Shown piece after piece: positions 3,561-32,438 of a DNA stretch of 64,000 bases. Made by a program: the position numbers and the translations under genes. The notes under the pieces were generated by a model, which saw nothing but the letters and a program-made list of their open reading frames with translations, searched no databases and was not told the origin of the DNA. Source of the DNA: Umbilicaria muhlenbergii. Taxonomy: Eukaryota > Ascomycota > Lecanoromycetes > Umbilicariales > Umbilicariaceae. Position 1 is the first letter of the stretch. Each line of letters opens with the position of its first letter. The stretch spans positions 8,665,431-8,729,430 of the forward strand of contig KK106981.1 of the NCBI GenBank assembly GCA_000611775.1, in the 5' to 3' direction.

Positions 3561-5060
3561 AATTAAATGAGCATAAAAAGAAGTGATCAAGGAAGATTTA
3601 ATTAATGTCATAAGAACACTTTTTCCTGATTTTCCTCAAGAGGTTTTACAGGTTTTATTAAGACCTTATAGATGATTTACAGCAAGAGTCAAGAGTGACA
3701 AGTTCATTAAAAAAGATGAATCATCAGCAAAGCACAAGAGAAGCATAATATTATTATCATCACAGCAGTGAATCAGAGCAGGCTGAAAGAATTATTATAC
3801 AAGATCAACAAAATGTTAATAAAACATTATTTACTCATCTTCATCATTATTTTTTTTTTCTCATCTTCATCATTCTTCTTTGATTTCTCTGACCTCTCTG
3901 ACTCCTCAAAAGGAGAAAAATCTTCATTATCATTATCATCATCATTATCAACAACAGCAGGCAAATGCTTTTAAAATTGAATGCAAATTAACTGATCTTA
4001 ACAGTTAAGAAAGAAGTATGAAGAAGAGAATTGAACTGAGTATCTCATGATATTCAGAATATCTTCAAGAGTGACATTAATACACTTAATCTGCTCAAGG
4101 AGCAGGAGGTTGACCTTGACAGTAAATTTCAATTTCAACAGCTTTTGATAACAGTCAGTAACACAGAGATGTGCTGTAATCTTCTTATTATAACACTTTT
4201 AACGCGCCTTAAGGGCGGTCAGGAGGGCAGGCAGAGGAGTGTTGATATTAACTTTATTGATTAAGTGAATCAATGTGTTTATCTTGCACATGAACCACAC
4301 AGGGACCTTAAATCATCAGTGAAGTATAATAAGTGAGCATGTTAAACTTACTGAAAGACAAGCCTTGTGAAGATTGATGCAGTATGTGCACTTAACATTT
4401 ACATATGCATCACATACCTGAGTCATGTCATCTGTGAAATGATGACTACATCAGAGGCAGAAGGGTTCAATAAGTCATGCATGTAATTTAATGAAGCACT
4501 TAACAATGAGTGAGTGTTGTATGATGACTCACATTAAAAGTGCATCTATGAAGCCAGCTTCTCTGACTTACAAGCATAATGACTGATGTTGTGATGTTGA
4601 AGATGATGCATTTTGAGGGTGTGTTGATGATGTTGTGATGAAGTGTCACTGCTCTGACAAAAGTTGATGGCAGAAGGTTGAGGAGTTAATAATATTTATA
4701 TCTTGAAGCTTTTATTATGATATCACTGCTCATGACCTGAGTAGTGCTATCATAACACTATTGCAGCTTCACTGCTGTGACTTCATTCTCATCACTCTGC
4801 TTCTCAGGATTTTCATGTTCACATGACTAATTCACCTCACTATTACTTCACTTAATCAGTGTCAGCGCTGCGTCATCAGTTCAACAGTTAATTAAGTTTT
4901 TCATCAATCACTTACTCTTCTGCATCAGAGGGCTGATGCATAAGGGGGAGGCAATTGTCATGAGTTAATGACAATTCAAGACTCACATAAGGCATGTGTC
5001 TTACAAATGACTTAACAGTGTTAATGAGTCACATGAAAACTCTGCACTGCTTAATCTCAT
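3561..5060 (+). other. AT-rich 3' region of fossil C, no gene recognised
   Basis: About 1.5 kb between the chromodomain of fossil C and the 5' LTR of element A. It contains a low-complexity open stretch at 3768-3974 (a hydrophobic run followed by Ser-rich sequence, from TTATCATCA-type repeats) and small homopurine and TCATCA tracts. There is no LTR pair to mark where C ends. It most likely holds the long non-coding tail of C and older debris (inference). I see no host gene. Confidence 0.5.
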
Positions 5061-5338
5061 TGTCAGGGCCATCATATATAGTAGTATGATAATACAACAG
5101 TACAACAGTACAACAGTACATCATTATAACTCACTTATATGATGACTCAGTGAGTAGCGCCTTGACATCAAGTGAAAACTCTTCACAAGGAGGTTCAGAA
5201 ACCTGCTTCCTCAGTAATCAGTTTTGTCATCAAATAAAAGACATATAATTATTGCATTGACCTCATCATGACTATATTGCTTATGACACTCTGTTCAAAC
5301 ATCATTATGATGCTCTGTCATACACTCTGCTTCTTACA
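5061..5338 (+). repeat. 5' LTR of element A (278 bp)
   Basis: Starts TGTCAGGGCC and ends TTCTTACA. It matches 12989-13274 directly, and 21228-21513, 29164-29481 and 63590-63867 in reverse complement. It carries a short ACAGTACA-type minisatellite near 5095-5120 that varies in copy number between LTRs. The outer flank 5056-5060 is CTCAT. Confidence 0.92.
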
Positions 5339-8300
5339 TACTGATCACTCAGTACCTTCAGGTGAACAGTCACATCAAAAGCAAATAAAACATGATGACA
5401 TCAACACTTCAATCTCATCAGGACAGTGAAGCAGCTAATTAAATTAAATCAGAGCCTTCAATTAACAGATTTATATTATCAACTGTCAACATCTCTGCTT
5501 CTGACATTGTCAATGACAATGATGAACATATCAATGCAGGTAACCCTGATGACTTCATTAATAATCTTGAAGCAGTCACTGCTCACAATCAGGAAGTCAT
5601 CAAGCGTCAGTGATTACAACTACAATGTGTACAACAAGAAATTGAGTTTGAAGATAATAAAAAAAAGCTTCAGGAGTTTAATCAACACCTGTAAAAAGAT
5701 CCTTTAATTATGAGAAATTCAAGAAATGACACAGGTTCATCACATGAATTATGATGTTGAGTTATGACAGACATCACACCCCTCCTTTTTCAACACCTTA
5801 TAAAGTCATGAGAGCCTCATCTCTATGCAGGAGGCGTTAAAGTCATGAGATGAAAACTTCAAAAATATCTGAATGAAATCAATCAGAATCAGGAGCTGAT
5901 GTCAGAGTAATTTTTTATCAAATGAGATTTCATCATCTGAGCAGGCACTTACCTTGAGAAAACAGTCATGAGTGACTGATGAAAACAAAAGGAGCAGCAT
6001 GATCATACTTAAGTCACTTATAACAACTTTTTAAAGATTTTAAAGAAGAACCTATCTCCTGATGAAGACATAAACAAATGAAATATCATCACCTTCAATG
6101 CAGCTGAATTTCATAATCATGATATAATCACTTTCTGATATGATAAATTATCAGAACTCTATCACTTCCTTTCAGCTTCACACAAGGAAATCAGTGAGAC
6201 ACTCATTTAAGACTGCTGATGATCAAGACTTCCTCATCACATTCTGATTAAACTATGATGTTGAGATCTGACGCAGGTTGCAAGACAGTCAGTGCAGGAA
6301 ATTTCAGCACATCTTGACATCATCATTAATCATGAACCATTCTGAAGCTGCTCAGACATCAAAAAGGATCATTAAAGCAAAACTGATAATAATGACAAAA
6401 GTATGACACAGACATCATATTATGACAGAAAAGAATCTCTCATCAAACAATAAATAATCTGCACTCAATTCACTTAATTCAGCTGTGAAAGAGAAAACAA
6501 CTCATGAGGTTTCTACTGTGAAAGTGACTGCAATCAGAGCCAGAATCTCAATCATATATTAATCACTGAGGAAGCAACTATGATGATGACATGAACATTC
6601 ACAACCCCCTCATGCTGACAAGGAGACTTCATCTCAAGGAATGAAGTGAATGCATGAAGGTCAACAGGTCTCTGCATTAAATGTGAAGTCATCAATCACT
6701 GAATAAATGATTATATGACTGAATGATCTACAGCTGTCTTCACTGCAGTTAATGTGAATAAATGACTTGCAGATCACCTTCAGTTTGCTTCATTATTAAT
6801 TATTAATGATATCTCACGTCTGATATCAGGGCAACTAGAGGTGAAACTGCACATAATGACAATGAGTGATATGATGAGCAAATCTTCACAATATTCATAT
6901 ATTATTGACAACGGCAGTCAGGGCAATATAATCACATGAGATGTTGTCAATAAGCTGTCCCTACTGACTGAATCTTATGAGGCTCAAGGCAATGCATGAG
7001 GTAATGTGATTGAGCTATCAGAGTCTGTTGTACTGATGATTACAATGTACAACACTGACAGTCAACTTTACTGCTATAGCAATCATTTCTTTATCACACA
7101 AGACAACACATCAGCTCCTTTTGTCCTCAGATTATCATTTCTAGTTCATGCAAACTCAAATCACTACTATGATATGAGTAAATTTTTATGAAGAAAGCCA
7201 AAACATACTACTGCACATCATATATTCATCATCAATGAAAAGAAGGTGTTGAAGAATGTCTTACATATAAATAATCTCATCATTACTGACTGCTTTATAG
7301 GGCTGATGAATTTAGTGACTGATATGAAAAAATATACCCTACAGATGAACTCATTGTGATATGACAAAAAATATGACAATGTCTATGACAGTCTACCTCC
7401 TGAATATTATGACTTCACAGACATATTTTAAGCAGCTGAGAAGCAGTCTCTACCTGAGAGAGGTTCACATGATCATGTCATTGACTTGAAATCAAAGCAG
7501 CAATCTTCATTTAAAAAGTTATACTTAATGTCCTCAGCTGAGCTCAATGTACTGAAGGTATATTTAGATAATGTTATGAAGGCAGGCATAATTCATAAAT
7601 TAATATCATCTGCAGCTTCACCTGTTATGTTTGTACCAAAATCAGACAGCAGCCTATGACTAGTCATTGATTATAAGCGCTTGAATGATATTATCATTAA
7701 AAATCACTACTCACTACCACTTATATCAGACATGTTGAATCATCTTCAAGGAGCTAAGAAGTTCACTAAGCTGAACTGCAAGAATGCATATAATCAAATA
7801 TGAATCAAGGGTGAAGATGAGTGGAAAACAGCATTTCAAACATGATTCAGCCTGTTTAAATATCTTATCATGTCTTTCAGTCTCATGAATGCTCCTGCTA
7901 TGTTTCAGGCATTCATTAATAAGGCTCTTAATGAGTTTCTTGATATAATTTGCATGATTTATCTAGATGATATCCTGATCTTCAGCAAAGATGAATCTGA
8001 ACATGAGGAGCATGTATGACAAGTATTAATTATGTTACAACATCATGATCTTCATCTTAAGATCAGTAAATGCTTTTTTAATGCAACAGAAGTGAACTTC
8101 CTGAGGTTTAAGATCAATACTGAAGACATACATATGAGTTCAGAAAGGATTCACATCATTGAAGAATGACTACCCTCAGAGAACATTCATGAATTACAGG
8201 TCTTTTTAAGCTTCATTAACTTCTTCTGAAGGTTTATAAGAGGTTATTCATGAATTGCAGCATCACTGTTAAATCTTCTGAAAACAGGAAAGAATAAAAA

Positions 8301-9140
8301 GAAGACTGAGGATACATTATTCTTTCCTCTTCAATCTCAACAGACTGTTATTAAAAGGAAGCAGAACAACCTGACCTCATTATGAAGATTTAATACAAAG
8401 TATTCAGCATGCAACCTGTAAGTCAGAGGAGAATTATAACAAGAAAACATCATACCTGCCTCTTTTTCACTCTCAGAAGTCACATTAAAAATGTTTAATG
8501 CTCTGAAGGAGACCTTCATGAGTGCTTCATTATTACATTATTTCAATGAAAACAAACTCATGAGGGTTGAAATGAACGCCTCTGAATTCACAATTAATGA
8601 AATCTTGATGCAACACTTTAAGGTTGATGATCAATTGCACTGATTATTAATTACTTATTACAGTAAGAAGCTGCTAAATACTGAGATTTAATATGATACA
8701 AGTGAGCAAGAGCTCCTTGTCATCATGAAAGTCATGCATCATTAACAGCACTACTGTTGAGGCGCTAAGCACTCAATCATCATATTAATCAATCATGCAA
8801 ACCTTGTTTGATTTATGACTACCTTAAACCTCACATGAAGGCAGCTCAAGTGAGCTGAAAAGCTCACTGAGTACAACTTTAAGGTCACATATCAAGAGAG
8901 CAAGAAGAACTCTGCTGACAGTTTATTAAAATGACCTGATTATGAACTGCTGAAGGTTGTCAGTACCTTAATCATCACTGAAATAATGCAACAATCCTTT
9001 TATTTAGGAAGCAAGAATTATAAATCAGTGCAGAAGAAATTATACATGCTTGCTGCAATGACACTGCAGTCAAGACACTCAGTATGACAGAAGTTACAAC
9101 AAAAGAATGTTGTACCTGTCACAATAAATAATATCAGTAT

Positions 9141-9400
9141 GATGAATACTGAAGCTGATGACATGACTGAAACATCAGCAGTTCATGACCTACATGCTTG
9201 AAAAACAAGCCGTGATGAATATGTCAGTATGACATATGCTGAAGCTGATGACATGACTGAAACATCAGCAGTTCATGACCTACATGCTTGAGAAGCAAGC
9301 CATGATGAACATATCAATATGATGAATACTGAAGCTGATGATATGACTGAAACATCAGCAGTTCATGACTTATATGCTTAAGAAGCAAGTCATGACTGAA
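9141..9400 (+). repeat. Three 90-base tandem units inside element A pol
   Basis: Units begin at about 9141, 9231 and 9321, each opening with a variant of GATGAATACTGAAGCTGATG. The period is exactly 90 bases (30 codons), so it keeps the reading frame. They lie between RNase H and the integrase zinc-binding region. The same array is present in element B near 25105-25375 on the other strand, so it belonged to the family before these copies inserted. Confidence 0.85.
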
Positions 9401-12270
9401 TGAAAGAATCTGAGTATGCAAAACCTGAGCAGCACTCAATCAAGGATAATGCAGCAGGCATTGTAATTATGAACAGTGATGCAAGTCACATTCTTATTAA
9501 TTTTTAAATTAAGGATAGTGCTCCTTCTGTTGACATTGTTGAAGCACTTCAACTCATGTCTACTCACTCACCCCTAGGTGAGGAGATAACAGCTTATACA
9601 AGAATGTTTATTGAACAACTTAAACATATGATTCATACTGAACAGTCAAAAGATGATTTGATACAATGAGTACAACAGGGATTAACTACCCCTCTTGAGG
9701 ATAAAAACAACTTGATCAGGTCAGAAATGATAAATATGACAATAATACTCCCTGACATAATGAAATGTTGAGAGGAAATTGAGGATGTCATATATTATGA
9801 TGATAAGATTTACATTCTGCAGAACTCTGCCCTTCACAATGCAGTGATCAGTTGATTTCACAATGATGTCTTTGCAGGTCATTTCAGGAAGTCAAGAATT
9901 ACAAAATTAATGCAATGATCTTATAACTGACTTGATGCTGTCAGAGATGTATGATATTACTGTCATGACTGTGTTGAATGTTAAAAGGTGAAGCCAGCTC
10001 ATCATAAATCATATAAATTATTAAACTCATTGTCAGTCTCAACTGAGTCATGACATACAGTGACAATGAACTTCATTATGAATTTATCACTGAGCAGCAT
10101 GTATAAAAGTATGACATGAGATTCAATCCTTGTCATAGTTGATAAGTTGACCAAAATGGCTCATTATATTTCAGTACAGAAGACAATGTCAGTTGTTGAC
10201 TTCATTGAAGTGTTTATTCAGGACATAATTAAGCATCATGACATGTCAAAAGTTTTAATCACAGACAGAGATAAGCTGTTTACATTAAAGCAGTGAATCA
10301 GCTTCTGCTTTCACATGTGATGTCATCATAACATGTCAACAGCTTTTCACCTGCAAACTGATGATTAAACAAAGAGGCAGAATCAGTCCCTGAAGATGTA
10401 TTTATGCATATTCATTAATGAGCAGCAAGAGAACTGAGTGAAGTTTTTACTCTGCATGAAGTTCTCATACAACAACTTCATACATGCTGTTATGAGAAAG
10501 AGCCTCTTTCAGCTTAACTTAAAGTGAGATCCTCAGATGAGCTTAAGTAAATCATTTATACAGCACTCACATGAATAAATAAGACTTTATGCAGATGCAC
10601 AGCAGCTTCAAGATCAAATTGCAACAATTTAAGAGCAGTTACAACAGGTTAATGAAACATATGCAAATTATTATAATCAGTGCTGAATGGAGATAACATT
10701 CAAAGAAGGTGATTTAGTACTGATTAATGAAAAGAATGTATCAATGAACAAGCAGATGAAGAAACTGCATTGAAAAAAACTCAACTCATTCATGATATGA
10801 CATGTGATAAGTCAGTCATCATATGAACTTGACCTCTCAGAGGATTAAAACATCTATAATGTATTCAACATCACTTTATTAAAGTCATTTCAAGACACAT
10901 GTCATGTGTCTTCTGCATTAGCAGAAAAAGACTTACTACTCAACTGAGATGATGAGTGAAAAGTTGAGGCAATTATGAATAATCACATTCATGACAGCAA
11001 GCTTCAATACCTCATTAAATGAAAGCTGACAGATCAGGTGTGAGATGACACATGAAAATCAACACACTTCATTCATAATGTAAAGGCAAAAATGTGAAAA
11101 TTTCATGCTGACAACTCTGATAAACAGAAATTCAGGTGAGTCTTAAAACATGACTCTTTGAGATCAATTAAGAAGCTGTCACAAAAGTCATGAGCCTTAA
11201 GAATTGAAAACCTTGTCAGCTTTGTTAATCTGATCTTTTATGACAGAGCCTGTGCTTTACAACAAGTATGACAAAAGTTATGATGTTATGATGTTATAAC
11301 AAGATCTTTAATAAAATTACTGCATGAACTACATTATCACAGACGTGTCACATTGCAGAGAACATTTAAATGCAGAAACATTTCATTTCAGATTTAAAGA
11401 TTAAAATGAATCTGAGATCAACACTTTGCACTCAATTCTTCATCAGCATCATGTCAAGTCATCTTTATTTATTTACTTGTCTTTCATCATTTTAAACTCT
11501 TCTTTATTATTATTTGATGAAGCCTCTGACCTCATCTCCTCAATGCATCAACACTCACAGAGTTCAATGTACTCTTGATGATGATGAGATTGATGAGTGT
11601 TGAGAATGTGAAGAGCGTGAGCAGTGCTCTTCAATAAGATAATAAAAGCTTGAATGAGCTTCTCAGAACTACTGAATTAACACATTTCAATCTCAAGAGA
11701 GTTAAAAAACTCATGTTGAGAAGCAGCTGCAGAAGGCATGAAGAGTGTTAATAATGACTGATAAGAGATGATGACATGAGGAATTGATCAGTCATCAAGC
11801 ACTATACAACAATTAACATGTTAATAATACAACAGTGCAACAGTACAACAGTATGATAAAATGTTGTATATACAACAATATGACAAAATGTCATAGATAT
11901 GACAAGTACATCATATTCATATTAAATAAAACAAAATGAAAGGGGATTAAAAAAGGCAGATTTATAATGTGTCATCACTTCTCCTGTCATCATAAGCATG
12001 CATGCGCAGAACAACAACATCAGAGCTTTTAAAGACTGAGACAGTGATGATTGAAGACTTCATCATGCATTAATCATGAGGGTTGCAGAGTGATGTGTAA
12101 CAAGTGCAGATTGAATTAATCTGTGACATGAAGCACTGATCAACTTTGACTTTTCTGCAAGAGTCACAGTGAGCAGTATCTGACAATGTGTGACTGAGGT
12201 TCTTTTAAATCACACACTCATGATGATGACCCTGCTGCACGCGCGCTGACAGTGAGGTATTGTTGTGACA

Positions 12271-12528
12271 TCACACAGAGCAAGAACTGCTGCTGAAGAT
12301 GTCACTCAGAAGTAAATGCTTAACCCTCTTCAAGTGTTGAATAATCAGTTTTATCACTCTGTTTCCCTGTCTCTTTCTGAAGGTGTTGATCATCACAGTT
12401 TCATTCACTGACTCTGACTCAGAGCCCTCCTCATCACATTGAGCCTGAAGATCAACAGGCTTCTCTGATGAAGATGAGTCTTCACTGTTGTTTGTGATCA
12501 TGAGTTCAAGAGTTTGATTATTGATCAC
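12271..12528 (-). other. Antisense open frame in the 3' region of element A (85 codons)
   Basis: An open frame on the strand opposite to pol, in the long region between the chromodomain and the 3' LTR. It is acidic and Ser-rich near its start, then has a basic segment (RKRQGNRVIKL). Element B has a clearly related sequence at about 21990-22247. I do not recognise the product. Some fungal and plant gypsy families carry extra or antisense frames (established knowledge); whether this was ever expressed is unknown. Confidence 0.4.
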
Positions 12529-12988
12529 TTATATATCATGTTAACATTCATATGATATATGACAGGAAGTATGACATCATAAATGAGGCATGAGCTGCAA
12601 GCTTCATGATGTTCTCTTCATGAGGTGAACATCTCTGCAATGAGAATGATGTCATGAAGTCATCAGATCACTCAATGAGCTGTGAAAAAGCTGTGAGAAG
12701 TATGATGACATATTATAAGAGAGATGATGAAGAAGAAACACAAGAGGAGGATGTTTTAAACTTACAGTAAATATTTTAATTTTAATGTTTATGTTAAGAA
12801 GAAGAGCTTACTGTCAGGTGTAATATCATCATAATTAAGTGAGAGCATGTGATCAGCTTTATTTTAACATGATTTCACATCCTCATCTTACATGATCAAT
12901 TATCTATCAGGTCATCATGATGATGTTTATAATGATGAGTTTAAAATCAATTGACATCAGGAATGACGTCATGAGAAGGGAAATGTTG

Positions 12989-13274
12989 TGTCAGAGTCAT
13001 CATATATAATAATACAACAATATGACAGTATGACAGTATGACAGTATGACAGTATGTCACTATAACTCACTTATATGATGACTCAGTGAGTAGCATCTTG
13101 ACATCAAGTGAAAACTCTTCACAAGAAGGTTCAGAAACCTGCTTTCTCAGCAATCAATTTTATCACTGAATAAAAGACATATAATCATTGCATTGACCTC
13201 ATCATGATTATATTGCTTATGACACTCTGTTTAAACATCACTATGATGCTCTGTCATACACTCCGCCCCTTACA
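12989..13274 (+). repeat. 3' LTR of element A (286 bp)
   Basis: Starts TGTCAGAGTC and ends CCCCTTACA, with a tandem TATGACAG run near 13020-13055. The outer flank 13275-13279 is TTTGC, which does not match A's 5' flank but is the reverse complement of the flank outside element B's 5' LTR. Confidence 0.92.
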
Positions 13275-13690
13275 TTTGCCTTGATTAAAAAAGTTATATC
13301 ATAATTTAACAGAAAGCAGAAGATCACTTTTACATTAATCATAAAAACTAAATATATTGAATTATGCAGCACTGTTAAGACAGTAGTTTAAATTACTGAA
13401 TAATTTAAAAAAATCAATTTGAAGAGGTTTTTAAATCATAAAACAATTCATTAATATGAAGACAATCAGTTAAATATATATTTTATCAAAAACCCTGAAT
13501 TTTATATTTAAATAAAGCATATTAACATACAGTATCATTGTATAAGAGAAGTTTTAAAAGACAGTCTTATCAACTTATTTTATATTTGTATCAATAATAT
13601 GACAGCTGACTGCTTAATCAAGTCTTTTATTAAGGATAAATTTTAAGTTAAACTTTTCTTGCTCAGCCTTGATACTTAGAACTTTACAGG
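13275..13690 (+). mobile_element. Ty1/copia RNase H fossil
   Basis: AT-rich relic whose + strand reading shows landmarks of the 3' end of copia pol: an ISW-x-NRKQ block near 13300, a YEDNQ-like block, KNPEF followed by IKHINIQYHCIRE near 13500-13560, and a MTADCLIKS block near 13600 (compare KNPEFH, TKHIDVRYHFIRE and VADILTK in the family). It abuts the 3' LTR of element A. The upstream part of the same copia domain appears to lie at 29482-29579 on the minus strand, on the far side of element B. Old and broken. Confidence 0.75.
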
Positions 13691-14221
13691 ACGGCCTTTT
13701 ACAGATAAGTTAATAAAATCTTTTAAAAAAGCATATCAAATTGCCTCTCTGATGAAGTTATTAAGTTTTTGAAGGACATGATTGGCAACTTATGATTTTA
13801 TTTCAATTCTATTCAAGTTATTTTTGATTATTTTTTACTCATGACTTACAGAGGCTGAACAAGACGCTCACTAACATTAATTTAAGTTTTGTTTATGCAT
13901 TTTATGTTTCAGATTTGCCCCTGAAATCAGCCAATCACCATTCTACTTATAGGACCCAAAATAGCAGGCTTCAGGCCACAGTGATGAAGTGAGAGTGTTA
14001 CATGCGGAAAATCATTCATCCGCCCCGCCCTGCAGCAGCCAATAGCAGGCATTATGCCCTACATGCGCTCAGCCCGACTATAGGCGCTCAGTCAATGTAG
14101 GTGAGCACCGAGAAAGCTGATATGGGGGGGTATTTAATAAGCTTTGATTTCTACGAAGACTGCTTGCTTCTATACGTTCATTTATATCAATTTGGGCGAT
14201 ATTTAGCTAGATACAATACAT
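13691..14221. other. Transition from AT-rich to GC-balanced DNA, no gene recognised
   Basis: Base composition changes at about 13900: CpG and GC-rich blocks appear (for example CCGCCCCGCCC near 14021). There are CCAAT motifs near 13929 and 14039. This would be downstream of the truncated sulfatase reading frame, but I find no continuation of that gene here on the minus strand. No coding region is supported. Confidence 0.5.
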
Positions 14222-14515
14222 TTATTTGGCCTCTATATCGTCCATTGCAACACAGAGATTGACACGAGATGGGCAGCAAAGGGCGACAGTACAAAAGTGG
14301 TGTTGATAAGTGAGACCTTTGTCGGTGAGGTGTTTCTTGACAAGCGGTTGGTAAGAGAGTGACTCGAGATGAACATCTTGGTCGTCGGTCAGAAAGAAGA
14401 CGACATTCGGTTTTCTCGTCCCCATCGTCAGAGGTGATTGGGCGTCAGACTCAACGGCTACCGCCGTAAGCGCCGCTAACCCGAATAGCCGGGCAATCTT
14501 CTTAGAAAACAGCAT
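14222..14515 (-). pseudogene. Arylsulfatase, N-terminal fragment
   Basis: The minus-strand frame starts at MLFSKKIARLFGLAALTAV, a typical secretory signal peptide, so I prefer this Met to the in-frame one 25 codons upstream at 14590. It continues with RKPNVVFFLTDDQDVHLESL (the metal-binding DDQD segment of sulfatases) and CTVALCCPSRV, which holds the C-x-P-S-R motif whose cysteine becomes formylglycine. Family members are roughly 500-650 residues and hydrolyse sulfate esters outside the cell. Here the match stops a few residues after the catalytic motif, and the frame ends at 14222 after about 97 codons of which the last dozen are unrelated. The rest of the sulfatase is missing, so this is a remnant, divergent from the transporter gene at 15264. 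Confidence 0.85.
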
Positions 14516-14590
14516 GTTGGAAGGACAATATTTTGGTACAAGTTCAAATCGTGCGCTGAGAACCTGATGTTTCATCGGCTGTTTAACCAC

Positions 14591-15263
14591 TCACAAATTC
14601 ATGTGTGTCCTTCCAAATCGTTGAGCGGGGTTCTCTGTTTCACTGCATGGCTCCAGCACGCAATTTGCGCCACTGATTTGCTTTCTTTCACGGCGATCCA
14701 CGGCGCTATAGCAGCCTACCATCATTGGGCAATGAGAAGTCTTTCTTCTGGGGTGTGCAGAAGAGGCGTCCTCACGATGGCAACAAGACCGAGAGGACTT
14801 GTGAGATGGATGACAATCTTTACGTGGGTAAGCAACACCCCTCTAGTTGGTTTGATGATCCATGTACTATGCACTTGAAGAGCTTCCTCTTCGGGATTGC
14901 AAACAGGGCTAAGAAGCGGAATCCTGTTGACCTTGGGAAGCCACCTACTTGTAGTGTGGGTTTCAATTCTCCTTGAACATCTTGCAGTCCCTTTACGGTG
15001 ACTCGTGTGCTTTTTTCCAAAATGGTGTAATCTCGGAACGATCACTTTGATGCTACAATGCCATTGCCCAATCGGGGCATTCAAGAGGCCAACCCGAAGA
15101 GCGCCTTCGAGTCTAGGCTATGTCGTGCTCGGAGAGTGGATGTCTTTCTATGGCACATTTGAAAGTTTCTGTCAATGCCATTATGTATATAACATCAAGA
15201 ATCGCTATGTTCAAGATCCCCTAAGCTTCCAGTCCTGAAATACTGGAAAACCTATTACGCAAA
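14591..15263 (+). other. Sulfatase-transporter intergenic region with unrecognised coding-like relic
   Basis: GC-balanced stretch between the divergent sulfatase start and the transporter start. On the + strand it has protein-like pieces in changing frames: an 83-codon frame at 14725-14976 (FFWGVQKRRPHDG, SWFDDPC, KKRNPVDLGKPP), then SLYGDSCAFFQNGVISERS around 14985-15045, and a frame at 15005-15238. I do not recognise the family. It could be a decayed gene or part of an unusual promoter region; frame changes without clear introns favour a relic. The promoter of the 15264 gene should lie at its right-hand end. Confidence 0.35.
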
Positions 15264-17911: not shown

Positions 17912-19083
17912 GTCTGCGAATAGAAGCAGAGAGCGCTCTTTCATAACCGGGCATACCTGTTCTGCACGTCCCGTGTGACTCAGTCAGGTATGTGAGGGCA
18001 GCAACAGCGTTGTACTAGGGGCTGTTATTTCAATTTCCTTCAGCCTATACATTTGGTTGTGCCTAGGATAAACATATATATGACCAATGGGGAGATGGGG
18101 TTCTTACAAATCCGCAGTGAACATAATTAGTACACTTGATAAGCATACAAATATCAGATTCAGTCCTTGCTCAAGATAGGCTTGGTTGCTAGGGGTGAAG
18201 ATTCGTGGCGCTAATACATACAAAAAGCAACAGACTGTACACGCTACCAAATCAGAGCACTCAGCTATTCTCGAGACAATATCAAGACTTATCTTCTCTC
18301 TCAGAATCCTAGAAACCAGCAAAACACAGCACTGCCGCTTTGCCGCTTTCCCGAAAGGCTGCTCGTCAAATCACTGTCACGCGTCCTCGAATCAATCCTG
18401 CATAGAGCTAGAATCAGAACAGTAGGTCAGATAACCGCCACATGCAACAGCAAACCCCTCTCTATCTTCACGCAGAAGACGCAATCTTTAGCCTATCTGT
18501 CGTAATTCGAGGGTTCCTTAACCCATGCCATCTGATTCGCGCCTGATGGTATAATTCATGCACGTCAAACGCAATCCCGGGATGATCAACACGTGCTGCA
18601 AGACGCTTCTGCCTGGGACGAAGCTAAATGAAACATTTGTTGGCCAACGCGTGTTTGCGAGCGGATTTCGAGGAGGCTGATTGGGCGGCCGGCCAGCGGG
18701 CAAGGTACTTAGCTGATAAGAAGATCTAGTATGCAGAGTCGAGAACTCGATCTGCAACTAGTACTCGCCCTTTTGTGGCTTTACTTAGCCTTCAGAAGAG
18801 TCTGGGCGATGATCTTGGCTGAACAAGTGTTCGTGCGAGTCTCTTATCGAGCTTCCTGGTCGGCTCACGGCACTTACAGGTGAGAGATTGCTCATCGACC
18901 AGATCGAAGCCATAAGGAAATCAGCTGGACTCTGTTTCGGGACGTGTCTTTCTGGATCGAGTGATTTGAATATATCTAGACACTTCCTTGGCTGCTTTCC
19001 AAAAGCTGCCATCCTCGAATCCGCTCCTCTTGTCGCTGTTTTAACAAAACACCGTTTCCCTCTCCGAACTTCAGTACGTAGGC
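17912..19083. promoter_or_regulatory. Intergenic region: transporter 3' end and dioxygenase promoter
   Basis: 1.17 kb, GC-balanced, with no convincing gene on either strand (short frames only, without codon-like character or family motifs). Possible control sites upstream of the dioxygenase: an E-box CACGTG at 18590-18595, an inverted CCAAT (ATTGG) at 18680-18684, GATAAG at 18715-18720, and an AT-rich GAATATATC stretch near 18967. E-boxes are bound by Cbf1-type regulators of sulfur genes in yeasts, and GATA sites by nitrogen regulators (established knowledge); their use here is inference. Confidence 0.45.
18590..18595. promoter_or_regulatory. CACGTG E-box about 490 bases upstream of the dioxygenase
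   Basis: A perfect palindromic CACGTG. In yeasts this is the Cbf1 site used with Met4 at sulfur-assimilation promoters. A six-base palindrome can occur by chance, so function is only suggested by the nature of the downstream gene. Confidence 0.35.
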
Positions 19084-20437
19084 ATGGCATCCTCCGCTGT
19101 TGATACAGCCGCGCCCGTGGCAGACCTAGTCCATAAGAGAGCAGCTTTCAATGGTATTGCGGAAGAATCAGTCACGAACGCGGCTGTGTCCAATGGGCAT
19201 ACAGAAGAGCTCCACTCCACCCCTTCCAAAACCCCGCTGGAACTCAGTGGCGTTCTTGATCAGTTCAAGTCGTTCGACGTCACCCCTGTTATCGGGAAGG
19301 AGTTCCCAAACGTCAACCTTGCAGACTGGCTGAGAGCTCCGAATTCCGACGAGCTGCTGAGAGATTTGGCAATTACAGGTTCGTAAATCCTACATCTCTA
19401 ACCGTTATTCTAATGAAACAATATATATACTCATCTCAACGTAGTCTCCCAACGCGGCGTTGTTTTCTTCCGCGCTCAAGACTCTTTGGACGACACCCTC
19501 CAAAAAGAGCTAGCCCAGCACCTTGGCGAGCTCTCTGGCAAGCCCAGCTCCTCAACTCTGCATGTCCATCCGATCATTAATTCCGGTCGTGAGCACGGCG
19601 GCTCGGACAACGAGATCAGTGTTATTAGTTCTGTGCAAGCAAAAGCAATTTACAAAGGTTCGTTCTTGGATCCGAGCGAGAAGAAGCAGAGCGGTAAGGA
19701 GGGCTGGCATTCGGATATTACGTTTGAGCCGGTGCCGAGTGATTATGCCATTCTTCGGCTTGTTGAGCTTCCTGGAACTGGAGGAGGTAAGAATCTCGTC
19801 CGTCGGCTTTTTCGGTTCCGATCGCTAATGGCACTCGTTTAAAGATACACTCTGGGCGTCTGGTTACGAACTCTTTGACCGCCTCTCCGCCCCCTATCAA
19901 AAATTCCTCGAGTCCTTGACCGGAACCTACGCGCAGCCAAAATTCGGCGAAGCAGCTAAGAACGGCGGTTTCAGTATGTTTGCCGGTCCTAGAGGTTCTC
20001 CCGACAACATCGGCGACAAGCTCGAAGCCATCCATCCCGTTATCCGGACAAACCCCGTAACAGGATGGAAATCCGTCTTTGCGGTCGGCACACACGTACA
20101 GAAAATCAACGGAGTAACGCCGCTGGAATCGAAAGCCTTGTTGGAATGGTTCGTGAGGCTGATTGTCGAAAATCACGACTTGCAGGTACGTCATCGGTGG
20201 CAGAACCCGAATGATGTGGCTATCTGGGATAATCGTAGCGTTTATCATGCTGCGACTCCTGATTACGAGGGTTTTGGCGAGCGCTTGGGGCATCGTGCCG
20301 TGAGTATTGGTGAAAGACCTTACCTGGATCCGGCAAGTACGTCAAGACGTGAGGCATTGCGACAGAATTTGGAGGCCAATGGCAGTAAAGGAGGATCGTT
20401 GGAGACAAATGGCAAGGTCAGGCGCGGAGTTTCCTGA
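19084..20437 (+). CDS. TauD/Jlp1-family 2-oxoglutarate Fe(II) dioxygenase
   Basis: Cytosolic non-heme iron dioxygenase; family members use 2-oxoglutarate and O2 to cleave taurine or other sulfonates, releasing sulfite for sulfur assimilation. Three exons: 19084-19378, 19445-19786, 19845-20437, with introns of 66 and 58 bases (GTTCGT...GTAG and GTAAGA...AAAG; branch CTAAC near 19400 and GCTAAT near 19824). The product is 409 residues, usual for the fungal family, with no disruption. Iron ligands are visible as H187-x-D189 in GWHSDITFEPV and H347 in SVYHAATPDY; R363 in LGHRAVSIGERP is the expected 2-oxoglutarate-binding Arg. A fungal N-terminal extension precedes TPVIGKEFPNVNLADWL. It is tandem with and downstream of the transporter, both on the + strand. 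Taurine, another sulfonate or a sulfate ester could be the substrate. Confidence 0.93.
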
Positions 20438-20663
20438 GGACGACTGGAATATGATATATAAGACTATGGCTCCAATCAACCATTAATTCTTATATTGATA
20501 CAGGCAGTAAATCTTCTTGTTGTTGAATATAGCCTCAATGCGTAACGTAATCTACCCAGCAACGCCGGAGTATAGGCAACGCCCCCACCCCCCCACCCCC
20601 CCCGGTAGGAAAACATGAATACACATAAACAATGATAGAAAATCAGAATTTCACCATAATTGC
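20438..20663. other. Dioxygenase 3' flank with a C-rich tract
   Basis: Non-coding. It contains a nearly pure C tract interrupted by two As at 20582-20603, after which composition becomes AT-rich. This marks the right-hand edge of the GC-balanced island. No polyadenylation hexamer of the AATAAA type is obvious right after the gene. Confidence 0.55.
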
Positions 20664-20922
20664 ATGCATTTAATGAAGAAAGAAGAGCATCTTCTAAAGG
20701 TCATTGAGGTCTACATTGAGGCTCTTAAAGATTCAGAAAATCCACCTTCCTACCGCTGAATTGTCAATCAATACAACATATTAGACTGTACACTAAGAGG
20801 GAGAATTCAGGGCACTCAACAATTTAAAAAAGTAATCAGCAGTATTATGCAGAGATTATCAGCTATAAAAGAGGGTTCTAGAATGATCACTATGAATAAA
20901 AGATTTGCATTCTCTAGCTAAG
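20664..20922 (+). mobile_element. Probable pogo/Fot1-type DNA transposase fragment (HTH region)
   Basis: The + strand frame reads MHLMKKEEHLLKVIEVYIEA, then, past an in-frame TGA at 20757-20759, IVNQYNILDCTLRGRIQGT and MQRLSAIKEGSR. The pattern helix, RxxVNxYxIxxxTLxxRxxG, then QRLSxxxE resembles the Psq-type HTH start of fungal pogo/Fot1 transposases (family knowledge). Only the DNA-binding part is seen; no DDE catalytic domain follows. Short and decayed, so the call is tentative. No terminal inverted repeats were identified. Confidence 0.4.
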
Positions 20923-21227
20923 AATCTTTTAATAGCAAAAGAAGATATAATTGACTTAAGTGTTTATTAATATTTAAAATTTCTGCAGTGTTATCCTGAC
21001 TTGAAAATTATCTTCTCATGAAAGTTAAATTAGTCATAATATTTAGCAGGTTCTCTAGAAATCATTGAGCATTAAATTTCAATTATACTACATCATAATT
21101 GTCAGATTATAGCGTCCCTTACTAGAAAGAGAAGTATAGTTGAGGTATGTGACAGCATGAGATATAAATGTATAAAGGTTATATGATCCTAACTATATAA
21201 AACTAATAATTAAGGAATGAAGATGAG
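20923..21227. other. AT-rich spacer before element B
   Basis: Non-coding AT-rich DNA between the transposase fragment and the outer end of element B. Its last five bases (21223-21227, ATGAG) are the reverse complement of the CTCAT outside element A's 5' LTR. Nothing else is recognised. Confidence 0.5.
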
Positions 21228-21513
21228 TGTAAGAGGCAGGGTGTATGACAGAGCATCATAATGATGTTTGAATGAAGTGTTGTAAGCAATATAATCATGA
21301 TGAGGTCAATGCAATGATTATACATCTTTTATTCAGTGACAAAACTGATCACTGAGGAAGCAGGTTTCTGAACCTCCTTGTGAAGAATTTTCACTTGATG
21401 TCAAGGCGCTACTCACTGAGTCATCATATAAGTGAGTTATAATGATGTACTGTCATACTGTCATACTGTCATACTGTTGTACTGTTGTATTATTATATAT
21501 GATGACTCTGACA
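21228..21513 (-). repeat. 3' LTR of element B (286 bp)
   Basis: In + orientation it starts TGTAAGAGGC and ends CTCTGACA. The adjacent host-side flank 21223-21227 is ATGAG. Confidence 0.92.
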
Positions 21514-21989
21514 CAGCATTCTCCTTCTCATGATGCTGTCTCTGATGTCAATTGACTTCAAACTCATCATTATAAACATCATCATGATGACTTGATAAGT
21601 GATTGATCATGTAGGGTGAGGATGTGAAACTGCATTAAAATAAGACTGATCACATGCTCTTGCTTAATTGTGATGATATCATGCCTGACAGTAAGCCCTT
21701 CTTCCTAACATAAACATTAAAATTAAAATGTTTATTATAAGTTCAAAACATCCTCTTCTTGTGTTTCTTCTTCATCATCTCTCTTATGACATGTTGTCAT
21801 ATTTCTCATGACTTTTTCACAGCTCATTAAGTGACTTGATGACTTCATGATGTCATCCTCATTGCAGAGGTGTTCACCTCATGAAGGAAGCATCATGAAG
21901 CTTGCAGTTCACACCTCATTTGCAGTGTCATACTTCCTGTTGTATATCATATGAATGCTAACATGATATATAGGTGATTAATAATTGAA

Positions 21990-22247
21990 CTCTTAAACTC
22001 ATGATCATGAACAACAGTGAAAACCTGCCTTCATCAAGGAAGCCTGTTGATCTTCAGACTTAATGTGATGAGGAGAGCTCTGAGTCAGAGTTGATGAATG
22101 AAACTGTGATGATCAACACCTTCAGAAAGAGATGAGGAAACAGAGTGATAAAATTAATTATTCAGCACCTGAAGAGGGTTAAACATTTATTTTTAAGTGA
22201 TGTCTTCAGCAGTGGTTCCTGCTCTGTGTGATGTCATGATGATACCT
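21990..22247 (+). other. Counterpart of the antisense frame in element B's 3' region
   Basis: Opposite strand to B's pol and closely similar to 12271-12528 on the minus strand in element A, including the segments ETVMINTFRKR and NRVIKLIIQHLKRVKHL. Decayed. Similarity of the two copies shows that the frame was part of the family, not a chance feature of one copy. Confidence 0.4.
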
Positions 22248-25104
22248 CACTGCTGGCGTGCATGCAGCAGGGCCATCATCATGAGTGTGTGATTTAAGAG
22301 AACCTCAGTCACACACTGTCAGGTACTGCTCACTGTGACTCTTGCAGAAGAGTTGAAGTTGATCAGTGCTTCATGTCACAGATCAATTCAGCCTGCACTC
22401 ATTACATGTCACTCTGCAATCCTCATGATCAATGCATGATGAAGCCTTTGATCATCACTGCCTCAATCTTTAAAAGCTCTGATGTTGTTGTTCTGCATGC
22501 ACATGCTTATGATGACAGAAGGGGTGACAGCACACTGTAAGTTTACCTTTTTTAATCTTTTTTCATTTTGTTTTATTTAATATGAATATGATGTACTTGT
22601 TGTACCTATGACATTTTGTCATACTGTCATATATATAACATTTTATCATACTGCTGTACTGTTGCACTGTTGTACTATTAACATGTTAATTGTTGTATAA
22701 TGTTTGACAGCTGATCAATTCCTCATGCTGCTGTTTCTTATTAATCATTACTGACATTCTTCATGCTCTCTGCAGTCACTTCTCAACATGAGTTTCTTGA
22801 TTCTCTTGAGGTCAAAATGTGTTAATTTAATAATTCTGAGGAGCTCATTCAGGCTCTTGCTGTCTTGTTAAAGAACACTGCTCATGCTTTTCATGTCTTC
22901 AACACTCATCAATCTTGTCATCATTAAGAGTACATTGAACTCTGTGAGTGCTGATGTGTTGAGGAGATGAGGTCAGAGGCCTCATCAAATAATAATAAAA
23001 AAGAGTTTAAAATGACAGAAAACAAGTAAATAAATGAAAGTGACTTGATGTGATGCTGATGAAGAGTTGAGTGCAAGGTGTTGATTTTAAATTCATTTTA
23101 ATCTTTAAACCTGAAATGAAATGCTTCTGTGTTTAAATGTTCTCTGCAATGTGACATGTCTGTGATAATGTAGTTCATGTAATAATTTTATTAAAGATTC
23201 TGTTATAACATCATAACATCATAACTTCTGTCATACTTATCATAAGGCACAGGCTCTGTTATAAAAGATCAGGTTAACAAAGCTGACAAGGTTTTCAGTT
23301 CTTAAAGCTCATGACTTTTGTAACAGCTTCTTAATTGATTTTAAAGAGTCACATCTTAAAACTCACCTGAATTTCTGTTTGTCAAGATTGTCAGCATGAA
23401 ATTTTCACATTTTTGCCTTTGCATTGTGAATGAAGTGTGTTGACTTTCATGTGTCATCTCACACCTGATTCATCAGCTTTCATTTGATGAGGTATTGAAG
23501 CCTGTCATCATGAACATGATTATTCACAATTGCTTCAACTTCTCACTCATCATCTCAGTTGAGTAGTAGGTCTTTTCCTGCTAATGCAGAGGACACATGA
23601 CATGTGTCTTAAAATGACTTCAATAAAGTGACATTAAATATGTTATAGATGTTTCAATCCTCTGAGAGGTTAAATTCATATGATGATCAACTTATCACAT
23701 GTCATATCATGAATGAGCTGAGTTTTTTTTAATGCAGTTTCTTCATCTGCTTGTTCACTGACACATTCTTTTCATTGATCAGTATTAAATCACCTTCTTT
23801 GAATGTTATCTTCATTCAGCACTGATTATAATAATTTGCATATGTTTCATTAACCTGTCATAGCTGCTCTTGAGTTGTTGCAATTTAATCTTGAAGCTGC
23901 TGTGCATCTGCATAAAGTCTTATTTATTCATGTGAGTGCTGTATAAATGATCTACTTAGACTCATCTGAGAGTCTCATTTTAAGTTAAGCTGAAAGGGGC
24001 TCTTTCTTGTAGCAGCATGTATAAAGTTGTTGTATGAGAACTTCATGCAGAGTAAAAGCTTCACTCAGTCCTCTTGCTGCTCATTAATGAATATGTGTAA
24101 ATACACCTTCAGGGACTGATTCTGCCTCTTTGTTTAACTGTCAATTTGCAGGTGGAAAGTCATTGACATGTTATGATGACATCACATGTGAAAGCAGAAG
24201 CTGATTCATTGCTCTGATGTAAACAGCTTGTCTCTGTCTGTGATTAAGACTTTTGATACATCATGATGCTTAACTATGTCCTGAATAAACACTTCAATGA
24301 AGTCAGCAACTGACATTGTCTTCTGTACTGAAATATAGTGAGTCATTTTGATCAACTTATCAATTATGACAAGGATTGAATCTCATGTTGTACTTTCATA
24401 CATGCTGCTCAGTGATAAATTCATAATGAAGTTCATTGTCACTGTATGTCACAGCTCAGTTAAGACTGATAATGAGTTTAATAACTTATATGATTTGTGA
24501 TGAGCTGACTTCACCTTTTAACATTTGACACAGTCATGACAGTAACATCATACATCTTTGACAGCATCAAATTAATCATAAGATCATCACATTAATTTTG
24601 TGATTCTTGACTTCCTGAAATGACCTGCAAAGACATCATCATGAAATTGACTGATCACTGCATTACAGAGGGCAGAGTTCTGTGAAATGTAAATCTTATC
24701 ATTGTAGTATATGACATCCTCAATTTCCTCTCAACATTTCATTACATCAGGGAGTATTATCATCATATTTGTCATTTCTGACTCAGTCAAGTTGTTTTTA
24801 TTCTTGAGAGGGGTAGTTAATCTCTGTTGTACTCATCATATCAAATCATCTTTCAACTGTTTGGTATGAATTGTATGTTTAAGTTGTTCAATAGACATTC
24901 TTATATAAGCTGTTATCTCCTCACCTAGAGGTGAGTGAGTAGACATGAGCTGAAGTGCTTTAACAGTGTCAGCAGAAGAAGCATTATCCTTAATTTAAAG
25001 ATTAATAAAAATGTAACTTGCATCATCATTCATAATTACAGTGCTTGCTGTGTTATTTTTAATTAAGTGCTGCTCAGGTTTTGTATACTCAAGCTTTCTT
25101 ATTC

Positions 25105-25375
25105 AGTCATGACTTGCTTCTTGAGCATATAAGTCATGAACTGCTGATGTTTCAGTTGTATCATCAGCTTCAGTATTCATTGTATTGATATGTTCATCAT
25201 GACTTGCTTCTTAAGCATGTAGGTCATGAACTGTTGATGTTTCAGTCATGTCATCAGTTTCAGCATATGTCATACTGACATATTCATCACGGCTTGCTTT
25301 TCAAGCATGTAGATCATGAACTGCTGATGTTTTAATCATGTCATCAGCTTCAGTATTCATCATACTGATATTATT
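25105..25375 (-). repeat. 90-base tandem units in element B pol
   Basis: Three imperfect units matching those at 9141-9400 in element A, in the same place between RNase H and integrase. Confidence 0.75.
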
Positions 25376-28300
25376 CATTGTGACAGGTACAACATTCTTT
25401 TGTTGTAACTTCTGTCATACTGAGCATCTTGACTGCAGCATCATTGCAACAAGTGCATATAATTTCTCCTGCACTGACTTATAATCCTTGCTTCCTAAAT
25501 GAAAGGACTGTCACATTATTTCAGCAGCAGTCAAGGTACTGACAGTCTTCAGCAGTTCATAATCAGGTCATTTTGACAAACTGTTAATAAAGTTCTTCTT
25601 GCCCTCTTAATATGTAACCTTAAAGTTGTACTCAGTGAGCTTTTCAGCTCACTTGAGCTGCCTTCATGTGAGGTTTGAGGTAGTCATAAATCAAACAAGG
25701 TTTGCATGATCAGTCAATATGATGATCAGGTGCCTAGTGCCTCAACAGTAATGCTGTTAATGATGCATGATTTTCATGATGACAAGGAGCTCTTGCTCAC
25801 TTGTATCATATCAAGTCTCAGTATTTAGCAGCTTCTTGCTGTAGTAAGTAATTAATAATCAGTGCAATTAATCATCAACCTTGAAGTGTTGCGTCAAGAT
25901 TTCATCAATTGTGAATTCAGAGGCATTCATTTCAACTCTCATGAGCTTGTTTTCATTGAAATAATATAATAATGAAGCACTCATGAAGGTCTCCTTCAGA
26001 GCATTAAATGCTTTCAATGTGACTTCTGAGAGTGAAAAAGAGGCAGGTATGATGTTTTCTTGTTGTAACTCTTCTTCAACTTGCAGATTGCATGCTGAAT
26101 ACTTTGTATTAAATCTTTATAATGAGGTCAGGCTGTTCTGCTTCCTTTTAGTAACAGTTCATTGAGATTGAAGAGGAGAGAATGATGTATCCTCAGTCTT
26201 CTTTTTATTCTTTCCTGTTTTCAGAAGATTTAACAGTGATGCTGCAATTCATGAATAACCTCTTATAAACCTTCAGAAGAAGTTGATGAAGCTTAAAAAG
26301 ACCTGCAATTCATGAATGTTCTCTGAGAGTAGTCATTCTTCAACAGTGTGAATCCTTTCTGAACTCATATGTATGCCTTCAGTATTGATCTTAAACCTCA
26401 GGAAGTTCACTTTCATTGCATTAAAGAAGCATTTGCTGATCTTAAGATGAAGATCATGACATCATAATGCAGTTAATACTTGTCATACATGCTCCTCATG
26501 TTCAGATTCATCTTTGCTGAAGATCAGGATATCATCTAGATAAATCATGCAGATTATATCAAGGAACTCATTAAAAGTCTTATCAATGAATGCCTGAAAT
26601 GTAGCAGGAGCATTTATGAGACTGAAAGACATGACAAGATATTTGAACAGACTGAATCATGTTCAGAATGCTGTTTTTCACTCATCTTCACCCTTGATTC
26701 ATATTTGATTATATGCATTCTTGCAGTTCAGAGATGTGTATAAGAGCCAGCTTTAAAGATGATTCAACATGTCTGATATAAGTGGTAGTGAGTAGTGATT
26801 TTTAATGATAATATCATTCAAGTGTTTATAATCAATGACTAGTCATAAGCTGCTGTCTGATTTCAGTACAAACATAACAGGTGAAGCTGCAGGTGATATT
26901 AATTTACAGATTATACTTGCCTTCATAACATCATATAAATATACCTTCAGTACATTGAGCTCAGCCGGGGACATCAAGTATAACTTTTCAAATGAAGGTT
27001 GCTGTCCTGATTTCAAGTCAATGACATGATCATGTGAATCTCTCTCAGGTAAAGACTGCTTCTCAGCTGCTTAAAATATGTCTGTGAAGTCATGATATTC
27101 AGGAGGTAAACTGTCATAGACATTGTTATACTTTTTATCATATCACAACAAGTTCATCTGTAGGGTATATTTTTTCATATCAGTCACTAGGTCCGCCGGC
27201 TCTATAAAACAGTCAGTAATGATGAGGTTATTCATACATAAAACATTCTTCAACACCTTCTTTTCACTGATGATGAATATACAGCATGTGATAATATGTT
27301 TTGACTTTCTTCATAGGAATTTACCTGTATCATAGTAGTGATTTGAGTTTGCATGAACTAGAAATGATAATCTGAGGATAAAAGGAGCTGATGTGTTGTC
27401 TTGTGTGATAAAAAAACAATTGTTATAATGATAAGATTAATCATCAGTGTTGTATGCTGTAATCATCAGTATGACAGACTCTGATAGCTCAATCACATTA
27501 CCTCATGCATTGCCTTAAGCCTCATAGGATTCAGTCAGTAGGGACAGCTTATTGACAACATCTCATGTAATTGTATTACCCTGACTGCTGTTGTCAATAA
27601 TATATGAATATTGTGGAGATTTACTCATCATATCACTCATTGTCATTATGTGCAGTTCCACCTCTAGTTGCTCTGATATCAGACGTGAGATATCATCAAT
27701 AATCAGTAATAAAGCAAACTGAAGATGATCTGTGAGTCATTTATTCACATTAACTGCAGTGAAGACGGCTGTAAATCATTCAATCATACAATCATTTGTT
27801 CAGTGATTAATGACTTCACATTTAATGCAGAGACCTGCTGACTTTCATGCATTCACTTCATTCCTTGAGATGAAGTCTCCTTGTCAGCATGAGGGGGTTG
27901 TGAATGTTCATGTCATCATTGTAGTTGCTCCCTCAGTGATTAATATATGATTGAGATTCTGACTCTGATTGCAGTCACTTTCATGATAAAAACCTCATGA
28001 GTTGTTCCCTCTTCTGTGGCTGAATTGAGTGAATTGAGTGCAGATTGTTTATTATTCAGTGAGGAATTCTTTTCTGTCATAGTATGACATCTGTGTCATA
28101 CTTTTGTTGTTGTTATCAGTTTTGCTTTAATGATCCTTTTTGATGTCTGAGCAGCTTCAGAATGATTCATGATTAATGATGACATCAAGATGTGCTGAAA
28201 TTTTCTGCACTGACTGTCTTGCAACCTGCGTCAGATCTCAACATCATAGTTCAGTCAGAATGTGATGAGGAAGCCTTGATCATCAGTGATTTTAAATGAG

Positions 28301-29163
28301 TGTCTCATTGATTTTCTTGTGTGAAGTTGAAAGGAAGCAGTAGAGTTCTGATAATCTGTTGTATCAGAAGGTGATTATATCATGATTATGAGATTCAACT
28401 GCATTAAAGATGATGATATTTCATTCATTTATGTCTTCATCAGGGGATAGGTTCTTCTCTAGAATCTTTAAAAAGTTGTCATAAATGACTTAAGTGTGAT
28501 CATGCTGCTCTTTTTGCTTTCATCAGTCACTTATGACTGTTTTCTCAAGATAGGTGCCTGCTCAGATGATGAAATCTCATTCAGTAAGAAATTGCTCTGA
28601 CATCAACTCCTGATTCTGATTGATGTCATTCAAGTATTCTTGAAGTTTTCATCTCATGACTTTAATGCCTCCTGCATAGAGATGAGGCTCTCATGACTTT
28701 ATAAGGTGTTGAAAAGGAGGGGGTGTGATGTCTGTCATAACTTAACATCATAATTCATGTGATGAACTTGTGTCATTCTCTGAGTTTATTGTAGTTGAAG
28801 GATCTTCTTGCAGATGTTGATTAAACTCTTGAAGCTTCCTTTTATTGTTCTTAAACTTAATTTCTTGTTGTATGTGTTGTAGTTGTAGTCACTGATGCTT
28901 GATGACTTCTTGATTGTGAGCAGTGATTGCTTTAAGATCATTAATGAAGTCATCAAGGTTACCTGCATTGATATGTTCATCATTATCATTGACAATGTCA
29001 GAAGCAGAGATGTCAACAGCTGATAATGTAAACCTGTTAATTGAAGGCTCTGATTCAACTTAATTGACTGCTTCACTGTCCTGATGAGATTAAAGTGTTG
29101 ATGTCATCATGTCTTATTTGCTTCTGACATGATCATTCACCTGAAGGTACTGAGTGATCAGTA

Positions 29164-29481
29164 TGTAAAGGGCGGAGTGTATGACAGAGTGTCATAGTGA
29201 TGTTTGAATGAGATGTCATAAGCAATATAATCATGATGAGGTCAATGCAATGATTATACATCTTCTATTCAGTGACAAAACTGATCACTGAGGAAGCAGG
29301 TTTCTGAACCTCCTTGTGAAGAGTTTTCACTTGATGCCAAGACGCTACTCACTGAGTCATCATATAAGTGAGTTATAATGACATACTGTCATACTGTTGT
29401 ACTGTCATACTGTTGTACTGTCATACTGTTGTACTGTCATACTGTTGTACTGTCATACTACTATATATGATGGCCCTGACA
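29164..29481 (-). repeat. 5' LTR of element B (318 bp)
   Basis: In + orientation it starts TGTAAAGGGC and ends CCCTGACA. It is longer than the other LTRs of the family because of a run of alternating TGTCATAC and TGTTGTAC units near 29383-29458. The outer flank 29482-29486 is GCAAA. Confidence 0.92.
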
Positions 29482-29579
29482 GCAAAGATGTGTTTATGAG
29501 TCAATTTGTGATTTAAAGTATCTTTGATGTAATTTAAGTCTGAATACTTAAAAACACTCATAGGTTTAATTATTAAATA
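29482..29579 (-). mobile_element. Short copia-like relic next to element B
   Basis: About 98 AT-rich bases between B's 5' LTR and the start of fossil F. Read on the minus strand it resembles the part of copia RNase H that lies just upstream of the segment beginning at 13275, with fitting spacing. It is short, so the call leans on the matching GCAAA/TTTGC flanks. Confidence 0.45.
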
Positions 29580-30930: not shown

Positions 30931-31080
30931 TGTTATGATTATACCATGGCTTCACTGGCGTACTAGCTCCGCTACTCATTCTAGAATAAGTTTAGCTTAG
31001 TTTAGCTGGTATATAGCAGGCTTCAACGCCACTAATAAGAATCAACCTTCTTACAATCAATATTCGGAACACTTTCAACA
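30931..31080 (+). repeat. 5' LTR of the miniature element (150 bp)
   Basis: Begins TGTTATGATTATACCATGG, ends ACTTTCAACA. It is the same length as the 3' copy and differs from it only by about six transitions. Confidence 0.92.
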
Positions 31081-32288: not shown

Positions 32289-32438
32289 TGTTATGGTTAT
32301 ATCATGACTTCACTGGCGTACTAGCTCCGCTACTCATTCTAGAATAAGTTTAGCTTAGTTTAGCTGATATATAGCAGGCTTCAATGCCACTAATAAGAAT
32401 CAACCTTCTTACAATCAATATTCAGAACACTTTCAACA
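32289..32438 (+). repeat. 3' LTR of the miniature element (150 bp)
   Basis: Begins TGTTATGGTTATATCATGA, ends ACTTTCAACA, followed directly by the duplication TGACT. The usual purine-rich tract just inside it is weak. Confidence 0.92.

Follow-up and report, generated by a model that had tools for sequence, protein, structure and literature searches.

Exchanged target-site duplications at an inverted retrotransposon pair flanking a gene island in Umbilicaria muhlenbergii

Was a gene island of Umbilicaria muhlenbergii turned around between two retrotransposons? The question is raised by a 64,000-nucleotide stretch of contig KK106981.1 (positions 8,665,431 to 8,729,430, forward strand; assembly GCA_000611775.1), hereafter the window, in which two elements with long terminal repeats (LTRs), A and B, lie in opposite orientations on either side of the island and the short target-site sequences at their edges match crosswise. 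We analyzed the window computationally and consider a real inversion, produced by homologous recombination within the two inverted copies, to be the best explanation of this arrangement and a probable one.

Crosswise flanks of elements A and B

Element A occupies 5061-13274 on the forward strand, with a 5′ LTR of 278 bp (5061-5338) and a 3′ LTR of 286 bp (12989-13274). Element B, of the same family, occupies 21228-29481 on the reverse strand, with a 3′ LTR of 286 bp (21228-21513) and a 5′ LTR of 318 bp (29164-29481). The limits of both elements and of their LTRs were located by script, and the flanks were read directly. Both elements are full-length and belong to a single LTR retrotransposon family; their LTRs are direct repeats with TG...CA ends (TGTCA...TTACA), and a 5-bp duplication is seen only crosswise.

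CTCAT stands immediately left of the 5′ LTR of A (5056-5060), and the same five bases, read as ATGAG on the forward strand, flank the 3′ LTR of B (21223-21227). Similarly, TTTGC at the right edge of the 3′ LTR of A (13275-13279) recurs, as GCAAA, at the 5′ LTR of B (29482-29486). The two flanks of A agree with each other at 1 of 5 positions, as do those of B; the crosswise pairs agree at 5 of 5 and 5 of 5. Both matches are exactly 5 bp long, the sixth base differing on inspection. From the 5-mer make-up of the DNA in the window outside A and B, two random 5-mers would agree with P ~0.0021-0.0022, and both crosswise pairs would do so with P ~4.5e-6.

As a control, we used other LTR elements in the window. 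Nine direct-repeat pairs were available; removal of A and B, and of three weak pairs that were 67-79% identical and lacked well-defined LTR ends, left four elements. Three of these carry an exact 5-bp duplication of their own, namely TGACT (30931-32438), TTCTC (33596-40690) and GTTAT (53955-60107), and the remaining one (43930-50430) has a duplication matching at 4 of 5 positions (AAAAA/AAAGA). When the flanks of all six elements were compared with each other, none of 30 same-orientation comparisons was exact, and the only exact ones among 30 inverted-type comparisons were the two between A and B. We set the exact ends of the control elements by hand, working from alignments in which their flanks were visible. 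Two of them were shifted by one or two bases, and more latitude was taken with 33596-40690 and 53955-60107, so that the control is good, not blind. Because the controls keep their own duplications, such duplications normally outlast decay in this window. The exchange of duplications between A and B is thus real as a feature of the sequence, which bears out the preliminary description of two inverted elements of one family, neither with matching flanks of its own and both matching perfectly crosswise.

Decay of the two copies and the ancestry of their LTRs

Aligned end to end, A and B are collinear in inverted orientation, with 7351 identical columns, 846 transitions and 17 transversions; the sole gap, of 40 columns, falls in an array of 8-bp repeats within the LTR. 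About 10% of sites differ, and the longest identical run is 100 bases. Fourteen of the 17 transversions are inside a single 19-bp block of B, considered below, and the other three are spread over 8.2 kb. The scarcity of transversions, together with the collinearity, indicates that the copies were near-identical before decay and would have been good substrates for recombination.

The reading frames of both elements are broken. Five of the ten listed open reading frames (ORFs) of at least 70 amino acids in A and B were searched against Pfam: a piece of B (25868-26116) matched RT_RNaseH_2 (PF17919; E 5e-8; 33.3 bits, cut-off 29.8), and the other four had no match. We take this domain to be typical of Ty3 elements. 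By their LTR ends and the reverse transcriptase/RNase H domain, A and B fit the Ty3/gypsy type. About three tandem copies of a ~91-base unit lie inside both A (9124-9400) and B (25102-25378). A third, more diverged copy with an LTR of the same family lies at 63590-64000; compared with the four LTRs in A and B, its LTR carries 18 to 31 transversions. This copy abuts a repeat at 60108-63589 and extends beyond the window end.

Depletion of CpG accompanies the decay: 2-kb bins over A and B hold 1 to 8 CpG, versus 89 to 118 in three bins of the island core. Seven other repeat pairs, all from AT-rich DNA of the window, gave transitions and transversions in ratios of 126:6, 121:5, 199:16, 83:2, 42:1, 32:0 and 15:0. 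Divergence dominated by transitions is typical of C-to-T mutation directed at repeats (repeat-induced point mutation, RIP), of which the classical signature is CpA-to-TpA. As in RIP of fungal transposons, divergence here is almost purely transitional, CpG is almost gone from A and B, and the island core is spared. By contrast, the classical signature is not seen, the TA/AT ratio being below 1 in all 32 bins. The decay of A and B is transition-only and probably repeat-induced, with RIP as one reading of it. The 1.5-kb element at 30931-32438 lies inside a decayed element and is itself little decayed; its body is GC-richer, its 151-bp LTRs are 96% identical and differ by six transitions and no transversions, and the three of its six listed ORFs that were searched in Pfam had no match.

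All mismatches in the six pairwise comparisons of the four A and B LTRs are likewise transitions. Sites at which the LTRs divide two against two split 8 (A5′+B5′), 7 (A5′+A3′) and 6 (A5′+B3′), or 4, 2 and 3, respectively, when CpG sites are set aside; these counts come from one alignment, in which the position of gaps within the repeat array is not certain. LTR length (278 and 286 bp in A, 318 and 286 bp in B) separates no pairing. A first reading by hand had favored A5′+B3′ outside the first 30 LTR bases, and the site count did not confirm it. With transitions only and an 8:7:6 split, the LTR differences are uninformative on ancestry. They speak neither for nor against an inversion and are what would be expected had four near-identical LTRs decayed independently. 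The preliminary description had drawn mixed support from single bases at the LTR ends, which is accurate as a description, but those bases lend support to neither side; where decay is confined to transitions, differences at LTR ends are unsafe for pairing LTRs.

The four non-CpG sites shared by A5′ and B5′ all fall in the first 24 LTR bases (5061-5084 and 12989-13012 in A, and the matching ends in B), and both 3′ LTRs lack those letters. Weaker decay at the outer edge of the repeated stretch could possibly leave older letters in both 5′ LTRs.

A probable inversion and its rivals

The exchange is best explained as follows. Two copies of one LTR retrotransposon would have inserted in opposite orientations on either side of the island, at CTCAT and TTTGC, and each insertion would have duplicated the 5 bp at its own target. 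Recombination inside the still near-identical copies would have inverted all DNA between the crossover points, so that each element took one end of the other insertion and, with it, one foreign duplication; the swap is what we observe, and hybrid element bodies are what the model predicts. Transition-only decay, observed in both copies, may then have erased the internal traces of the crossover. In support of such an inversion, the exact crosswise matches occur in the single arrangement predicted by the model.

Several observations weigh against it. Neither A nor B could be recognized as a chimera: the polarity of A-versus-B mutations along the elements has no change point (476 of 500 shuffles as high), and the LTR site split described above singles out no pairing. 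An exact 28-base LTR pattern had no match in viral and prokaryote contigs, a set without eukaryote genomes searched in a way that misses decayed copies, and a dioxygenase peptide piece from the island had none in viral contigs, again without eukaryote genomes; both results say little. Finally, an adapter block in B shows the assembly or its consensus to be faulty there. Recombination between inverted insertions, by which the preliminary description explained the swap, nevertheless remains the best explanation, with the hybrid elements of that account as a prediction.

When mutations were scored by strand within each element, A had no change point (248 of 500 shuffles as high) and B had a weak one at element position 509 (32 of 500). 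The tract of lowest divergence between A and B, at element positions 2547-3824, is not significant as a conversion footprint (39 of 200 shuffles as low), and the most diverged bin is 6500-7000 (z 4.5). GC content is 0.33-0.40 in the left flank, 0.21-0.29 at the left edge of the island, 0.28-0.35 at its right edge and 0.26 in the right flank, and this composition does not tell ancestral junctions from derived ones. Neither the place of the crossover nor the polarity of the flip emerges from the window. The segment 13275-21227 had been proposed as the part turned around. Inversion is favored, but the inverted stretch would reach further, from some position within A to its counterpart within B.

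The strongest rival starts from the 19-bp block at 26732-26750 (forward strand), which replaces the bases of A in register and matches the sequence AGATGTGTATAAGAGACAG at 18 of 19 positions. We take AGATGTGTATAAGAGACAG to be the Nextera/Tn5 mosaic end; the term 'mosaic end' and the reverse complement of this sequence occur together in eight of eight papers. The corresponding place in A (7752-7770) lies in what reads as a conserved reverse transcriptase stretch. Allowing up to three mismatches, 0.04 matches to the mosaic end were expected in the window and two were seen, at 26732-26750 and 21221; no further site in the window matches with two mismatches or fewer, and none in A. We had first read the 14 clustered transversions as a micro-inversion, but inspection of the sequence showed none and identified the adapter instead. 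The most plausible reading of the block is sequencing adapter that remained in the assembly, and two causes would fit: at low coverage the consensus or a polishing step may have followed an untrimmed read, or a contig end may have been joined by overlap at this place. Weaker look-alikes, with three mismatches at 21221 and four at 29486, lie near the two outer ends of B; we take both as chance, the former being mostly ordinary LTR end.

The adapter inside B makes misassembly a concrete rival to inversion. If contigs had ended inside A and B, the middle contig would consist of the 3′ half of one element, the island and the 3′ half of the other, and a single orientation error in joining it would yield exactly the crosswise pattern. 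With a join at the block, the duplications could therefore appear swapped without any inversion in the cell. The mosaic-end match would be the mark of such a join. Close to it on either side, A and B share identical runs of 67 and 53 bases (the fourth and eighth longest), which would make a wrong overlap easy, and the block falls inside the lowest-divergence tract, itself not significant. However, A and B differ at ~10% of sites with no identical run above 100 bases, so that reads of ordinary length should distinguish the copies; a block exactly in register is also explained, without a join, by polishing or consensus with untrimmed reads; and the window contains no N and A no mosaic-end match. 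Taken together, these points leave misassembly a rather unlikely explanation that still has to be reckoned with. If the adapter does mark a bad join, swapped duplications alone are no proof of inversion in a draft assembly.

Far less credible is an origin by chance or by a more complex history, in which A and B lost their own duplications and their present flanks match by accident, or in which recombination at separate loci was followed by rearrangement. The LTR pairings are unsettled, so the element interiors demand no inversion; yet the probability of both matches arising by chance is minute, as calculated above, and exact flank matches were absent from all 30 same-orientation and the 28 other inverted-type comparisons.

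The idea that the block from ~1661 to 29579 is a single gene-carrying insertion splitting an older element at 1660/29580 is close to untenable: the copy at 60108-63589 holds both outer parts adjoining (62390-63589 resembling 1660-462, and 61116-62390 resembling 30930-29580), but the left element continues past 1660 in collinearity with another relative (459-1301, 1491-1645 and 2275-2922 pairing with 38568-37719, 37521-37367 and 36836-36194, respectively), the right part opens with an LTR-like TGTCAGG, and the edges at 1660 and 29580 have no common duplication. We rejected this single large insertion and regard the distal repeat, in which counterparts of 462-1660 and 29580-33439 are joined, as ordinary nesting of one element cut by another.

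The island between the elements and comparable systems

Of the segment supposed to have been inverted, only the island itself (13275-21227) is unique sequence; it keeps CpG in its core and has AT-rich edges. It carries a TauD-family dioxygenase gene on the forward strand, in exon-like ORF pieces (19045-20437), two of which match TauD in Pfam (E 2e-25 and 5e-12). The best match among solved structures is taurine dioxygenase (E 7e-22); the match to the NCBIfam taurine dioxygenase model, at E 1e-27, lies far below that model's cut-off. ORF pieces at 15225-17430 (forward strand) form a probable gene with introns for a permease of the major facilitator superfamily, which we take to resemble allantoate permease. 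Four of these pieces were searched in Pfam: three had no match and one matched only an unrelated viral family, below threshold. This last piece hit two NCBIfam transporter models (E 3e-5 and 5e-5), far below their cut-offs, and no solved structure. The permease identity is thus weak. Of the transporter and dioxygenase originally assigned to the island, the dioxygenase stands and the transporter is probable, with matches below cut-off. On the reverse strand, an ORF at 14222-14590 has a match to the sulfatase N-terminal domain below the Pfam cut-off (E 7e-4) and is probably truncated. Searches of the window for tRNAs and Rfam families found nothing.

The dioxygenase, the probable permease and the truncated sulfatase-like ORF together suggest uptake and use of organic sulfur, for which they may form a cluster. 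With the supposed breakpoints inside the elements, no gene need have been cut. It is conceivable, though improbable, that the element pair flipped a sulfur-scavenging island consisting of the dioxygenase, the permease and the sulfatase remnant, that repeat-directed mutation then froze its orientation, and that both orientations occur in the species.

If the inversion is real, the locus is a clean example, within one sequence, of how retrotransposons rearrange genes where transposons are abundant, and it would show that insertion scars outlast a decay that erased the internal evidence. The closest counterpart is inversion 2z3 of Drosophila buzzatii, which, according to its published account, was made by ectopic recombination between copies of Galileo and has oppositely oriented copies, exchanged duplications and chimeric copies as its hallmarks (PMC2775673). 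The first two are found here: same-family copies in opposite orientation at both breakpoints, and exchanged target-site duplications. Unlike A and B, known from one sequence, the Galileo copies are described as chimeric by comparison with other copies, and the breakpoint regions of non-inverted chromosomes were also sequenced (PMC2775673). The elements also differ in kind, Galileo being a DNA transposon with 7-bp duplications (PMC2775673) and A and B an LTR element with 5-bp ones.

Among fungi, recombination between long inverted repeats flips the intervening DNA in Candida albicans, where the inversions described span ~4 to 103 kb and most are only predicted (PMC6591007). The inversion at centromere 4 was detected by polymerase chain reaction in isolates, and seven further ones by computation only (PMC6591007). 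Unlike the present case, eight of the nine inversions in that description lie in ORF-containing repeats, with a median identity of 98.3% (PMC6591007). The kind of event is thus already known, and the A-B pair, if real, adds one example.

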